A stretch of DNA of 64,000 nt, taken from the NCBI RefSeq assembly GCF_024972735.1, contig NZ_CP087723.1, positions 2,294,001 to 2,358,000 on the forward strand, given 5' to 3'. This DNA comes from Halalkaliarchaeum sp. AArc-CO. Lineage in GTDB: Archaea; Halobacteriota; Halobacteria; Halobacteriales; Haloferacaceae. Within the stretch, counting starts at the first letter, position 1, and the number at the start of each line of letters is the position of its first letter. The notes beneath the pieces were generated by a model. It did no database searches. It was not told the origin of the DNA and worked only from the letters and a program-made list of their open reading frames with translations. Both the position numbers and the translations under genes were made by a program. Shown piece after piece: positions 1,212 through 8,301 of the stretch.

Positions 1212-2549
1212 ATGGAGGCAGCCCGACTGCCCGGTACCGCCGACGAGGACGACCAGCGGATCGTCCTGCACGTCGATATGGACTGCTTTTACGCCTCCTG
1301 CGAGCGGCTGCGCGAGCCCGAACTCGAGGGGGAGCCGGTGGTCGTCGGCATGGGGTACGAGGCCGGCGAGACGAACGGTGCGGTCGCGACCGCGAGCTAC
1401 GAGGCGCGCGAGCACGGCGTCGAGAGCGCCCAGCCGATCTCCCGGGCGCTGGAGCAACTGCCGCGGATCGACGGCGAGACGGCAGACGGGACGGACACCG
1501 ATCACCGGGGACACTACCGGCCGGTCGACCTGGAGTTCTATCGAACCGTCGCAGCGGACGTGAAGTCGGTGTTACACGACTGCGCCGACGTCGTCCGGGA
1601 GGTGAGCATCGACGAGGCGTACCTGGACGTCACCGACCGCACCGGGTGGGATCCGGTTCCCGGCGGCGATCCGAGTGGGGCGGCGGGGCCGGCCGAGACC
1701 CGCCGGCTGGCCGAGGGGTACGCCAGACACGTGATCGAGCGGATCGACCGCGAGGCCGGCGTGCCCGCCAGCGTCGGCGTCGCACCCAACATGTCGACCG
1801 CGAAGATCGCCTCCGACTTCGACAAACCTAACGGTCTGACGGTGGTTCCACCGGGCCACGTCAGGGAGTTCCTTTCGCCGCTTTCGACCGCCGAACTCCA
1901 CGGCGTCGGTCCGGTGACAGCCCGTGAACTCTCGGAGCAGGGGATCGAAACCGCCGACGATCTAGCGGCGGCGGACCCGACGGAACTCGAAGCGCTGTTC
2001 GGCCAGCGCGGTCGGGAGCTGTACGCCCGGGCCCGCGGCGACGACGACCGCGAGGTGACGCCGACCGGTCGGCCGAAGAGCCTCTCGCGGGAGTCGGCAT
2101 TCGCCGAACCGGTACGCGAGGGAGAGCCGAAACGCGAGACAGTCCGGGCGCTCGCCGCGGACGTCGCCGACCGCGCCCGGAGCCGGGAGGCGCTGTACCG
2201 GACGATCGGGATCAAGGTCGTCGAACCGCCGTTCGAGGTGAACACCCGCGCGGAGTCGCTCTCGGGCCCCGTCGACGATCCCTCGCTGGTCGAGGAAATT
2301 GCCCTGGACCTACTCGAGGAGTTCCACGACCGGCGGGTACGCAAGCTCGGCGTGCGCGTCTCGAACCTCTCGTTCGAGGCGGGGGATCAGGCGACGCTCG
2401 GCGGATTCGAGGGGGCGGACGCCGGGATCCGAGACGACGGAGACGAGGACGACGGAGACGAGGACGACGGGCACACCAGCTCGAGGCCGTCGCGCTTCCG
2501 TCGGGGCTCCGGCCAGGCCGCGCTCGACGAGTGGACGGAAGACGGGTGA
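1212..2549 (+). CDS. dinB: Y-family DNA polymerase IV (translesion synthesis)
   Basis: This 445-residue protein is a full Y-family polymerase. The palm carboxylates appear as HVDMDCFYASCE (D22, D24) and EVSIDEAYLDV (D134, E135). A helix-hairpin-helix region follows around residues 230-265 (LHGVGPVTARELSEQGI), then the little-finger domain. Such enzymes copy past damaged bases at the replication fork. The C-terminus carries a duplicated acidic tract (GDEDDGDEDDG) and ends in QAALDEWTEDG, which fits a PCNA-interacting peptide of the Q-x-x-L-x-x-W type. The gene stands alone, 86 nt upstream of surE. The ATG at 1212 is the first start after the tRNA and leaves a normal short N-terminal extension. 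Confidence 0.95.
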   Translation: MEAARLPGTADEDDQRIVLHVDMDCFYASCERLREPELEGEPVVVGMGYEAGETNGAVATASYEAREHGVESAQPISRALEQLPRIDGETADGTDTDHRGHYRPVDLEFYRTVAADVKSVLHDCADVVREVSIDEAYLDVTDRTGWDPVPGGDPSGAAGPAETRRLAEGYARHVIERIDREAGVPASVGVAPNMSTAKIASDFDKPNGLTVVPPGHVREFLSPLSTAELHGVGPVTARELSEQGIETADDLAAADPTELEALFGQRGRELYARARGDDDREVTPTGRPKSLSRESAFAEPVREGEPKRETVRALAADVADRARSREALYRTIGIKVVEPPFEVNTRAESLSGPVDDPSLVEEIALDLLEEFHDRRVRKLGVRVSNLSFEAGDQATLGGFEGADAGIRDDGDEDDGDEDDGHTSSRPSRFRRGSGQAALDEWTEDG

Positions 2550-2635
2550 GGCGTCGACGCCGTACGGGGAACCCGGGACGAAAGGACCGACGTCCGGTAC
2601 GTTCTTGTACGAGAGCGACCCATCTCCCGAAACCA

Positions 2636-3517
2636 GTGACCCGGCCGAGGATCCTTCTCACCAACGACGACGGCATCGACGCCCCGGGGCTCGCGTCGCT
2701 GTACGAGGAGCTGACGGCGATCGCCGACGTCACCGTGATCGCCCCCGCGGAGAATCAAAGCGGCGTCGGACGCACCCGCAACGGCACCGTGACGGTTTCC
2801 GAGAGCCCTCGCGGCTACCGGGTGACGGGGACCCCAGCCGACTGCGTGGCGTTCGGCCTCGGCGGCGGCGTGAGCGCCGAGTTCGATTTCGTCGTGGCGG
2901 GCGTCAACGACGGCCCGAACGTCGGAAACTACGTCGTCGGCCGGTCGGGAACGGTCGGGGCCTGCATCGAGGCCTCCCTCCTCGACACGCCCGGTATCGC
3001 CGTGTCCGCCTACCACTCCCGGGACTACCACTGCTACCCGGCCGAGCGCTACGAGTTCGATCGGCCGGCTGTCGTCGCGCGGCGGCTTCTGACTCGGCTC
3101 TCCTCGACGAACGCGGCGACGGACATCGACGTGCTGAACGTGAACGCCCCGGTCGATCTCGCGGCGGCGCCGCTTCGGCTCACCAGCCTCGTCGTCGATT
3201 ACTCCCAGCGCGTCGAGTACGACCCCGCCGACGGCTCGGTGACGGACGGCTACCACGAGTCGATTCCCGACCGGGACGCGAGCCGGGGCGATCCGGACGG
3301 AACCGACGTCGAGTTGATCGACAAGACGTGGCCGCACGTCGAAGGCTACGAGAACCCGCTCGAGGGAGCGGCCCGCTACCGGGATCGGTATCCCGAAGCC
3401 AGCGACCGACGGGCGCTCATCGACGGCGCCGTGAGCGTCTCGCCGCTCTCGTCGTCCCTCTCGGCGGTCGATTCGCCGGCGCTCGCCTCGCTGGTGGAGA
3501 CGATCGACGAGACGTGA
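2636..3517 (+). CDS. surE: 5'/3'-nucleotidase SurE
   Basis: The 293-residue protein begins PRILLTNDDGIDAPGL with the SurE metal-binding DD pair at residues 11-12, followed by APAENQSGVGRTRNG and GVNDGPNVGNYVVGRSGTVGA, all signature segments of this metal-dependent nucleoside-monophosphate phosphatase. The start is a GTG at 2636 directly before the first beta strand; upstream in-frame sequence is arginine-rich and overlaps dinB, so it was discarded. At 293 residues it is a little longer than bacterial SurE (about 250), the excess lying in the C-terminal half, as is common in haloarchaea. Confidence 0.93.
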   Translation: MTRPRILLTNDDGIDAPGLASLYEELTAIADVTVIAPAENQSGVGRTRNGTVTVSESPRGYRVTGTPADCVAFGLGGGVSAEFDFVVAGVNDGPNVGNYVVGRSGTVGACIEASLLDTPGIAVSAYHSRDYHCYPAERYEFDRPAVVARRLLTRLSSTNAATDIDVLNVNAPVDLAAAPLRLTSLVVDYSQRVEYDPADGSVTDGYHESIPDRDASRGDPDGTDVELIDKTWPHVEGYENPLEGAARYRDRYPEASDRRALIDGAVSVSPLSSSLSAVDSPALASLVETIDET

Positions 3518-3623
3518 GGGCCGTAACGAGCGGCGATAATCCATGACGGAACGTGAACGAGGCGTCTGACGTGCGTCCGACAACGGGCAACACCTTTGCC
3601 ATCGCCACGTGGAACCTACGCCA

Positions 3624-5879
3624 ATGAGCGACGACGCGAAGGACGAAGAAACCATTCACGTCGCGGAAGCGAGCGCCGGACCGGGCGCGTCCCCGGACGT
3701 CGAACCCGGGTCGCCGATCGAGATCCCCGCGGTCGAACTGCTCACCGGACGGGGGTTCGTCACCGGAAAGTCGGGGTCGGGAAAGAGCATCCTCGAGGGA
3801 ACCCCTGTCGAGACGCTCGAGGGTCCGAAACCCATCGAACACGTCACCGAGGGCGAACGGGTGCTCTCTATCGACACCGACACCGGCGAGCCCGCCTTCC
3901 GGCCCGTCAGGGCGAGCATCCGGCACACCGACGACGACCTCCTCCGGATCGAACTCGAAGACGGGACCGAGATTGTCGGCACCGGCGACCACAGCTTCCT
4001 CACTCGCGAGGACGGCGACCGGGGGGAGATCGTTCCGGTTCGCGGCGACGAACTCGAGGCGGGTGACCCGATGCCGACCTCGCCGACACACGTGGAGGGT
4101 CGCGCCTCGTCGCCCCAGGCGTCCCGAACCCGTGCCGACGGTGGGATTGCCGCGACGCCGACCGCGACCGCGTGTTCCCCCTCGAGCGACGACGTCCGCT
4201 GGCAGCAGGTCGCCTCGATAGAACCGTACCCCGGCGAATACGAGGTGTACGATCTCGACGTCGCCGGCACGGACACGTTCCTCGCGAACGGCGTGTTCGT
4301 CCACAACTCCAACACCGCCTCCGTCTTCGTCGAGAACCTGCTGGCGGAGAACCTCAACGTCCTGATCGTCGACACCGACGGCGAATACTACGGCCTCAAA
4401 GAGGAGTACGAGATCCTCCACGTCGGCGCCGACGAGGAGTGTGACATCGTCGTCTCGCCGGAACACGCCGAGAAACTGGCGAACCTCGCGCTCGAACAGA
4501 ACGTACCGATCATCCTCGACGTCTCGGGCTACCTGGAAGAGGACGTCGCGAACGAACTCCTTTTGGAGACGACGAAACACCTCTTTGCGAAGGAAAAGAA
4601 GCTCAAAAAGCCGTTTTTGCTCGTCGTCGAGGAGTGTCACGAGTACATCCCCGAAAGCGGCGGAATGACCGAGACCGGGAAGATGCTCATCAAGGTCGGG
4701 AAACGGGGGCGGAAACACGGGCTCGGCATCGTCGGCATCAGCCAGCGCCCCGCCAACGTCAAGAAGGACTTTATAACCCAGTGTGACTGGCTGGTCTGGC
4801 ACCGACTCACCTGGGACAACGACACGAAAGTCGTCGGTCGGATCCTCGGATCCGATTACGCCGACGCGATCGAAGATCTGGACGACGGTGAGGCCTTCCT
4901 GATGCGCGACTGGGCGGACTCGATCGATCGGGTGCAGTTTCACCGCAAGCAGACGTTCGACGCCGGTGCGACGCCGGGGCTCGAGGACTTCGAGCGCCCG
5001 GAACTCAAAAGCGTCTCCGGGAACCTCGTCTCCGAACTCGAAGAGATCAGCGACGAAAAGGAGCGCCAGGAATCGAAGATTGCCGACCTCAAACAGGAAC
5101 TCGACCGCAAGCATGCGCGGATCCAGCAGCTCGAACAAGAGCTCGAGGAGGCGCGGGACCTCTCGCAGATGGCCGACCAGTTCGCCCAGGCGCTCCTGGG
5201 CCGAGCGGAGGCACCTTACCGGGGGGGGCAGGGCCGAAACCTGCACCGCGAGGAGGTGTCCGACCAGTCGGTACTTCCGGAGTACGAATCGGACGGAGCC
5301 GATGGCCCCGAAGATCGGAACCCCGATACTCGAGGTGAAACGACGGGTCGAAGGGAAACGGAGGCTCCAGGCGAAGCCGAGTCTCCAGGTGAAGCCCGTT
5401 CTGCAAACGAAACAGAGGGTTCGGGCGCAGCCGATGTGCCGGACAGCCGTGCCGCGAACGGCGGCCCGGTTGCACCGATCGACGCCGCCGACGTCGCGGA
5501 GGCGGCAATGGAGTTCGCGGCCGACGTCCGGCTCGGCACGAGAGAGGCAGTCATCCGCGAGCTTCGCGACCGGATCGAGTCGCTACCGGAGCTTTCCAGG
5601 CGGATGCTCGATCACTACCGCCGGGAGGGGACGAGCGAACCGGTCGCCGCCCACATCGACGCCGGCGGCGACGGCGACAGACAGCTGGCGTACGGACGCA
5701 ACCGACCAGTCAGGACCGCCGGACTGATCCGCCACACCGGCCAGGGGGAGTACACCTACGCGATTCCGGAACTGGTCCGGGACGCGTACGCGGATCGCCT
5801 CGGCGACGACGAGGTCGAAGAAATGGTCGAGGCGATCGAGGAAGCGCTCGACGACGAGACTCCCGAGGACGAAAACTGA
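3624..5879 (+). CDS. HerA/DUF87-type P-loop ATPase interrupted by a mini-intein
   Basis: The 751-residue precursor is a FtsK-HerA superfamily ATPase split at its Walker A motif. Residues 1-54 end in TGRGFVTGKSGSGK, residues 55-228 are an intein, and the extein resumes SNTASVFVENLL, restoring an uninterrupted GKSGSGKS P-loop. Walker B is FLLVVEECHEYIPE (about 331-344), followed by GKRGRKHGLGIVGISQRP and the CDWLVWHRLTWDND segment typical of the haloarchaeal DUF87 proteins. A coiled coil covers about 460-520 (KIADLKQELDRKHARIQQLE). A low-complexity linker then leads to a C-terminal helical domain. After splicing the protein would be 577 residues. HerA homologues pump DNA or remodel nucleoprotein; no nurA partner is adjacent, so the substrate is open. 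The ATG at 3624 is preferred over one five codons upstream because the conserved N-terminus follows it. Confidence 0.88.
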   Translation: MSDDAKDEETIHVAEASAGPGASPDVEPGSPIEIPAVELLTGRGFVTGKSGSGKSILEGTPVETLEGPKPIEHVTEGERVLSIDTDTGEPAFRPVRASIRHTDDDLLRIELEDGTEIVGTGDHSFLTREDGDRGEIVPVRGDELEAGDPMPTSPTHVEGRASSPQASRTRADGGIAATPTATACSPSSDDVRWQQVASIEPYPGEYEVYDLDVAGTDTFLANGVFVHNSNTASVFVENLLAENLNVLIVDTDGEYYGLKEEYEILHVGADEECDIVVSPEHAEKLANLALEQNVPIILDVSGYLEEDVANELLLETTKHLFAKEKKLKKPFLLVVEECHEYIPESGGMTETGKMLIKVGKRGRKHGLGIVGISQRPANVKKDFITQCDWLVWHRLTWDNDTKVVGRILGSDYADAIEDLDDGEAFLMRDWADSIDRVQFHRKQTFDAGATPGLEDFERPELKSVSGNLVSELEEISDEKERQESKIADLKQELDRKHARIQQLEQELEEARDLSQMADQFAQALLGRAEAPYRGGQGRNLHREEVSDQSVLPEYESDGADGPEDRNPDTRGETTGRRETEAPGEAESPGEARSANETEGSGAADVPDSRAANGGPVAPIDAADVAEAAMEFAADVRLGTREAVIRELRDRIESLPELSRRMLDHYRREGTSEPVAAHIDAGGDGDRQLAYGRNRPVRTAGLIRHTGQGEYTYAIPELVRDAYADRLGDDEVEEMVEAIEEALDDETPEDEN
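3786..4307 (+). other. In-frame mini-intein (174 residues, no endonuclease) in the P-loop
   Basis: The insertion starts at Ser1 (AGC at 3786, lysine of the P-loop just before) and ends VFVHN with Ser as the +1 extein residue (TCC at 4308). Splicing motifs are all present. Block A is SILEGTPVETLEGPKPI, block B is GTGDHSFLT with T-x-x-H, block F is EYEVYDLDVAGTDTFLANG, and block G is VFVHN with penultimate His and terminal Asn. The segment between blocks B and F is only about 70 residues of low-complexity sequence, with no LAGLIDADG or HNH endonuclease. It is therefore a mini-intein that can probably splice but cannot home by itself. Ligating the flanks gives GKSGSGK-SNTASV, the family consensus, which fixes both junctions. 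Confidence 0.9.
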
Positions 5880-5885
5880 CGCCTC

Positions 5886-6530
5886 TCAGATCTCGCTGAC
5901 CAGATCCCACAGCACCGCCTCGGGATCGTCGGCCTTGGCGACCCCCGACGCGAGCAGCACGCCCTCGGCACCCAGTTCCTGTGCGGCGGCGACGTCAGAG
6001 CCCGTCGAGACGCCGGCACCACAGAACACCGCCACGTCCTCGTCGACGGCGGCGGCGGCGTCGACGGCGTCCTCGACGATTCCCGGATCCGCGGTCGACA
6101 CCGAGACGTCGCCGCCGATCAGCTCCGGCGGTTCGACCGCGACGGCGTCGGGACTGAGCGCGGCAGCAGCACCGACCTGCGCGGGATTGTTCGCACAGAC
6201 GACCGTCTCGAGACCCGCCCGTTCGGCCGCCGACAGCGCGCCGTCGACGTCGGCCAGACGGAGCCGTCGCTCGGAGTGGTTTATGAGGGTCCCTGCGGCA
6301 CCGGCGTCGGCGACCGCCTCCGCGAGCGTCGAGCCGGTGTGGCTCCCGTGTTCGACCGGGGAGACGTGCTGGGCCCACGTCTCCGCGCCGGTGTCGTGGA
6401 TCGCGCGCAGTTCGGCCGCCTGCGGGGCGACTGCCATGCGGACGCCGGACTCCTCGCTCACTTCCCGGACCGCCGCGGCGACGGCAGGTCCCTCACACGG
6501 GTACGCCTTCAGGTTCACCAGAACGAACAT
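5886..6530 (-). CDS. tpiA: Triosephosphate isomerase
   Basis: A 214-residue archaeal-type TIM, shorter than the ~250-residue bacterial enzyme as expected. Catalytic residues are visible: NLKAYP (N6, K8), LINHSERR (H85) and [10 protein letters not shown] (E133), then GAGVSTG and the phosphate-binding [11 protein letters not shown] near the end. It interconverts dihydroxyacetone phosphate and glyceraldehyde 3-phosphate in the cytoplasm. The ATG at 6530 is chosen because [11 protein letters not shown] is the canonical archaeal N-terminus; nine extra upstream codons are not family-like. It is convergent with the HerA-like gene, 6 nt apart. Confidence 0.95.
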
Positions 6531-6665
6531 ACCGTGAGTGGTGGCCCGCGTGGCCAAATAGCTTCACGATCCGGACACACTTCGGTCGGTCGAGCCGGCA
6601 CGCGAACCGAACAAGTGGGAGTAATTGTCAAATACCTGCTTCTCGAAACCCCGAACGAAACCGAG

Positions 6666-7691: not shown

Positions 7692-8228
7692 CTAGTCTTT
7701 CCGCTTGACTACGTCGCCAAGCGTCATCGTCCCCGTCGAGTCGCTGGACCACTCGGAGTCTTCGACGTCCTCGCCCTCGAGGAGCGAGATCTCGAGTTCC
7801 CGCTCGAGTTTCTTTTGAACGTCGTCGCTGGGGAGAATGTCGCCGCGTTCGAGCTTCCGAATCAGGCTCGCCTTCTCGTTGAGCTTCTTCGCGAGCTCCT
7901 CCTGGCTCATGCCGGTCGACTCGCGGGCGTTCCGGATCCGGTCGTCGTAGTCGGCCGCGAGCTCGTCCATCTCGTCGAACATGTCCCGCCGGCGCGACCG
8001 GGAGGATCCGCCCGACCCCGTGCTTCCGGCGCCCCCGCCGCCGGAGTCGCCCGATGCGGTGCCCGAACTCGAGGTCGTGGAGTACTTGCTCCCCGAGGAA
8101 CCGGTAGACTCGGTGCGGACCTCCGTGCCGAACTCCGAACAGGAGTCACAAAGCTCCAGCTCGGCGCCTTCGACCTTGGTCGTGGTGAGGGACGGCTTCT
8201 CCGCACCACACATCTCACACTGGGGCAT
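7692..8228 (-). CDS. mbf1: Archaeal multiprotein bridging factor aMBF1
   Basis: The 178-residue protein starts MPQCEMCGAEKP with a second CDSC pair at about residues 38-41, forming the N-terminal zinc ribbon of archaeal MBF1. A long Ser/Gly-rich linker (about 45-82) follows. A C-terminal Cro-like HTH reads RNARESTGMSQEELAKKLNEKASLIRKLERGDILPSDD in two parts (about 98-140). Archaeal MBF1 is thought to touch the ribosome or the basal transcription apparatus. The gene is monocistronic, with a T-rich run on its coding strand (7678-7684) just past the stop that could terminate transcription. The start at 8228 gives the canonical MPQCEMCG. Confidence 0.9.
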   Translation of the reverse strand: MPQCEMCGAEKPSLTTTKVEGAELELCDSCSEFGTEVRTESTGSSGSKYSTTSSSGTASGDSGGGGAGSTGSGGSSRSRRRDMFDEMDELAADYDDRIRNARESTGMSQEELAKKLNEKASLIRKLERGDILPSDDVQKKLERELEISLLEGEDVEDSEWSSDSTGTMTLGDVVKRKD

Positions 8229-8301
8229 ACACGTCCGTACCGCCGCCGAGAGTAAAAACCACACGCCCCAGTGTCGAGCGCCGAGAACGGACCCCGGCGC
8301 G

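Follow-up and report, generated by a model that had tools for sequence, protein, structure and literature searches.

An endonuclease-free class 1 intein at the Walker A site of a haloarchaeal HerA-like ATPase

The junction between the lysine and the following threonine or serine of the Walker A motif has been called a classic intein site (PMC5050341), and is the junction used by the MCM-a and VMA-b inteins (PMC10643990). These archaeal P-loop inteins (CDC21/MCM-a and VMA-b) belong to class 1, whose established chemistry has been reviewed (PMC10663303); they have the HINT fold, and are inserted after the Walker A lysine of a motor that handles DNA or ATP. Among haloarchaea, a survey of 118 halobacterial genomes found 24 intein alleles in 13 genes, and described large, mini and empty versions of the same allele side by side for pol-IIa and cdc21-a (Soucy 2014; PMC4071816). 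The intein described here resembles the former group in its position and fold and the latter in its coexisting states. In contrast to CDC21/MCM-a and VMA-b, its host is a HerA/FtsK-type ATPase and it forms a separate allele by sequence, and neither a HerA-like ATPase nor this site is among the 24 alleles of the survey. A search of freely accessible papers on inteins together with HerA or DUF87 found nothing on this host. Given these two results, the allele is probably unreported, while the kind of intein is already known.

The window, by which we mean the whole 64,000-nucleotide stretch analysed, is part of a 3.18-Mb haloarchaeal genome (G000:C2:2294001-2358000). The ATPase gene is a single forward-strand frame of 751 aa, from the ATG at 3624 to the stop codon ending at 5879, with a GTG at 3609 as a possible alternative start. 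The N-extein (3624-3785, 54 aa, 96% identical to that of a species of the same genus) ends in TGKSGSGK, which is the Walker A motif up to its lysine. It is followed by a 174-residue insert (3786-4307), and then by the C-extein (4308-5879), which begins SNTASVF and contains the remaining part of the ATPase domain (EECHE, Walker B), a coiled coil, a C-terminal domain and the stop codon, and is about 60-73% identical to full-length empty-site homologues within the family. The insertion is therefore between the lysine and serine of Walker A. The preliminary description, made from the sequence alone, had placed an intein at 3786-4307; in coordinates and frame, as in the splice junctions and the four blocks (A, B, F and G), it is correct to the base. 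The joined sequence that it gave was also right, but the serine after the splice belongs to the C-extein, so that the junction is GKSGSGK|SNTASV. The computed masses are 82.1 kDa for the precursor, which had been put in the 80-kDa class, 18.7 kDa for the intein, and 63.5 kDa for the spliced ATPase, rather than 58 kDa.

Several analyses identify the insert as an intein. In profile searches it matches the Pfam family Intein_splicing (PF14890, E = 4e-19), as well as TIGR01443 and TIGR01445 (about 1e-6 and 1e-5), and among solved inteins the CDC21-1 intein of P. horikoshii is nearest in sequence (2e-7). The N-terminal splicing half (residues 1-97, 3786-4076) contains blocks A and B, with S1 encoded at 3786-3788 and block B reading TGDH (T66-G-D-H69). 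The C-terminal half (residues 135-174, 4188-4307) contains blocks F and G, reading from VYDLDV in block F to GVFVHN, the terminal His-Asn being encoded at 4302-4307 and Ser+1 at 4308-4310. An alignment of nine same-site inteins has 52 invariant columns, among them S1, T66/H69, D156, H173 and N174. The defining residues of class 1 are thus all present, namely the TxxH of block B, the aspartate of block F (D156) and the C-terminal H173-N174, and S1 and S+1 are kept in all same-site copies read. The block F histidine that assists Asn cyclisation is absent, being an aspartate (D163) in all nine. This histidine is accessory rather than defining, and some active inteins do not have it; its replacement by D163 means that splicing efficiency is not readable from the sequence.

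A structure for the intein was predicted by AlphaFold from the window sequence and its relatives, with a mean pLDDT of 81, falling below 50 at residues 103-129. The model superimposes on solved inteins with Z of about 19-21 over some 124-142 residues and an rmsd of 1.3-2.0 Å for most of the best-ranked matches, and the insert is accordingly modelled as a HINT fold. The poorly predicted residues lie in the linker between the two splicing halves (residues 98-134, 4077-4187), which is mostly disordered in the model. A profile search of the 174-residue insert found no LAGLIDADG match, and in the alignment with relatives of 432-453 aa the gap coincides exactly with the endonuclease in the 432-aa forms, in agreement with the earlier view of a mini-intein that has no endonuclease. 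The linker is what the loss of that LAGLIDADG domain has left.

The host was classified using an empty-site homologue. This scores 48 bits against DUF87, above the Pfam cut-off of 23.2, and 54.7 bits against the HerA equivalog, for which the cut-off is 970. Its matches to HerA, CedD and antiphage HerA lie in the core regions of the P-loop and Walker B, and score far below the equivalog cut-offs. It has only about 50 residues ahead of Walker A; CedD has about 225 profile positions before the Walker A serine, against only about 54 residues in the host here. Because the HerA equivalog score is so far under its cut-off, the host is not HerA proper: within the HerA/FtsK superfamily it is a HerA-like ATPase with a DUF87 core, and the original assignment of a Walker A site in a HerA/DUF87-type host is supported. 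No nurA was seen directly adjoining the gene among the neighbour translations in the window. Judged from translations only, the flanking frames are DNA polymerase IV-like (1212-2549), SurE-like (2531-3517) and, on the reverse strand, triosephosphate isomerase-like (5886-6557) and a multiprotein-bridging-factor-like regulator (7692-8264).

Matches to the host protein are found in 290 of the 293 genomes of the order. Haloarchaeal homologues that have no insert read GKSGSGKSNTASV at the site, which is identical to the predicted spliced sequence, and the insert is thus in frame with precise flanks. Among the matches listed, the best matches to relatives start at residue 233-234, where the insert ends, except in G160 and G080, where the alignment extends into the intein. 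Since homologues with no insert are widespread, the segment is an optional element and not a conserved domain; a domain common to all homologues can be rejected from the empty sites across the order. A read error producing a false insert can also be rejected, as the separate genome of another species of the genus (G296) has a 171-aa mini-intein at the same site, 71% identical.

Longer forms, most with a LAGLIDADG endonuclease that looks intact, occupy the identical site in other genera belonging to three families. Full-length inteins of 432-433 aa are present in G294, G298 (Halegenticoccus soli) and G305, and, in a different family, in G160 (Halobacterium sp. CBA1126) and G080. They bear the LAGLIDADG-type motifs GLYLAEGSFD and SGYxDGDGT, and the one copy tested by profile, that of Halegenticoccus, matches LAGLIDADG_3 at 8e-15. 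Copies of 432 aa occur in three more MAGs. In a third family (f4), the copy in G428 is intact, whereas that of the MAG G425 (C22, L134) has a frameshift ahead of its C-terminal splicing block, with the ATPase frame running on downstream; this may be a real loss or an assembly deletion. The inteins of G391 (A07HR60; L081) and G392 (L082), of 443-453 aa, keep the length of the endonuclease domain but gave no LAGLIDADG match in the profile search, and their acidic motifs are altered (LGANGRT and LATGSSN; DATQT and DGSGT); they are intermediate between a homing intein and a mini-intein. All other homologues read have an empty site. A family-wide search found at least 7 of 170 genomes occupied, this being a lower bound because up to 20 candidates per genome were scored. 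As for carriage of the allele by viruses, the viral contigs scanned gave distant matches only, none having a Walker A intein by pattern.

The intein is patchily distributed, in a way that departs from the host tree. On the host-protein tree the occupied state needs seven changes, at least five of them forced by supported branches, and it never forms a single clade in bootstrap trees. Inteins usually evolve faster than their hosts. Nevertheless, some here are as similar as their hosts or more so (between G294 and G298 the intein is 77% identical and the host 73%), a pattern that fits horizontal homing. Apart from the closest pairs, the branches of the intein tree are weakly supported, and the tree was rejected as proof of transfer because that support is too weak for naming donors. 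The two mini-inteins are sisters, so that the simplest reading is a single loss of the endonuclease before their species diverged.

Invaded, decaying, mini and empty alleles are thus found side by side, which is the homing cycle. The intein, its site and its empty, endonuclease-bearing and decayed-endonuclease alleles can be read directly from the sequences, and we regard it as almost certain that this endonuclease-free class 1 intein is a LAGLIDADG homing intein at a late, degenerate stage, one that has invaded, on repeated occasions, a single Walker A site of this conserved HerA-like ATPase of haloarchaea. The residues Ser1, T66/H69, D156, H173, N174 and Ser+1 fit class 1 chemistry, from which we infer splicing itself. 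After translation, Ser1 would form an ester with the preceding lysine, Ser+1 would attack this ester, and the terminal asparagine (N174) would cyclise, joining the exteins as GKSGSGK-SNTASV to give the 63.5-kDa ATPase, with the predicted junction peptide SGSGKSNTASVF. Given that the P-loop is interrupted between its lysine and serine, the precursor should be inactive and unable to bind ATP normally. Imprecise loss of the intein would destroy the ATPase, and this would be enough to retain it with no need of a regulatory benefit.

Selection on the element was estimated from the two mini-intein species (G000 and G296). The ATPase core has a dN/dS of 0.04 and the intein one of 0.30; within the intein, the N- and C-terminal splicing halves give 0.24 and 0.18, and the linker 0.46. 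This is a two-sequence estimate, which does not separate an intein that must splice from one whose splicing is regulated. The splicing blocks are under purifying selection, and the pattern is that expected for a splicing-competent but otherwise unneeded element.

The preliminary description went further, and suggested that splicing could act as a switch under salt or redox stress. That the intein is now such a post-translational switch, with splicing and hence ATPase activity responding to salt or redox, we consider improbable. Conditional splicing is known in principle, from an intein in Halobacterium salinarum whose splicing depends on salt (Reitter 2016, as cited in PMC10663303) and from the RadA intein of P. 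horikoshii (PMC5790916), and the mini-intein is kept in both species of the genus with its splicing blocks conserved. However, keeping a splicing-competent mini-intein follows from the need for the host protein alone, nearly all other haloarchaea have no intein at this site, and the series of endonuclease-bearing, decayed, mini and empty alleles is explained by a selfish element. A redox trap was rejected, there being no suitable conserved cysteine: the only cysteine of the insert, at residue 130, falls within the linker and has no counterpart in the sister species, and both S1 and S+1 are serine. The switch thus remains an unsupported analogy with the H. salinarum intein. Its more specific form, in which the element has been domesticated in the two mini-intein species and its splicing lets intracellular salt gate a conserved HerA-like DNA motor, would be slightly less probable again.

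A precursor that no longer splices, the intein being a dead relic, is very unlikely. The endonuclease has gone and the intein evolves faster than the ATPase core, as a relic would, but the core catalytic residues are retained, the frame is open in both species, and dN/dS stays under 1, with its lowest values in the splicing blocks, next to a strongly conserved extein core. Although the HINT fold is common to Hedgehog autoprocessing domains, a domain kept in the mature ATPase, or one that cleaves in the manner of Hedgehog, is less likely still in view of the terminal HN followed by Ser+1, the exact empty sites, the interruption of Walker A and the LAGLIDADG-bearing relatives.

As a homing intein in a late stage of decay, the element adds a host protein and a site to the list of haloarchaeal inteins, and leaves ideas on how inteins work unchanged. 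Its value lies in a clean natural series at one site, where related genomes have alleles with an endonuclease, with a decayed one, with none, or with no intein at all, which makes the dynamics of the homing cycle testable in a conserved and poorly studied motor. A possible salt dependence of splicing at a Walker A site likewise becomes testable.

It is worth adding that the genome is rich in inteins: Intein_splicing has 19 matches there, spread over about eight frames, and one frame of 3105 aa has several; examples are at C2:652512-658877, C2:28321-31119, C2:138405-140594 and C2:565796-568192. A second mini-intein, 40% identical to the one described here, lies about 10 kb past the window in RNA polymerase A'' (rpoA2; G000:C2:2368255-2368761, L075). 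It is common to the sister species and several members of the family, and a longer version is found in L083 and L084.
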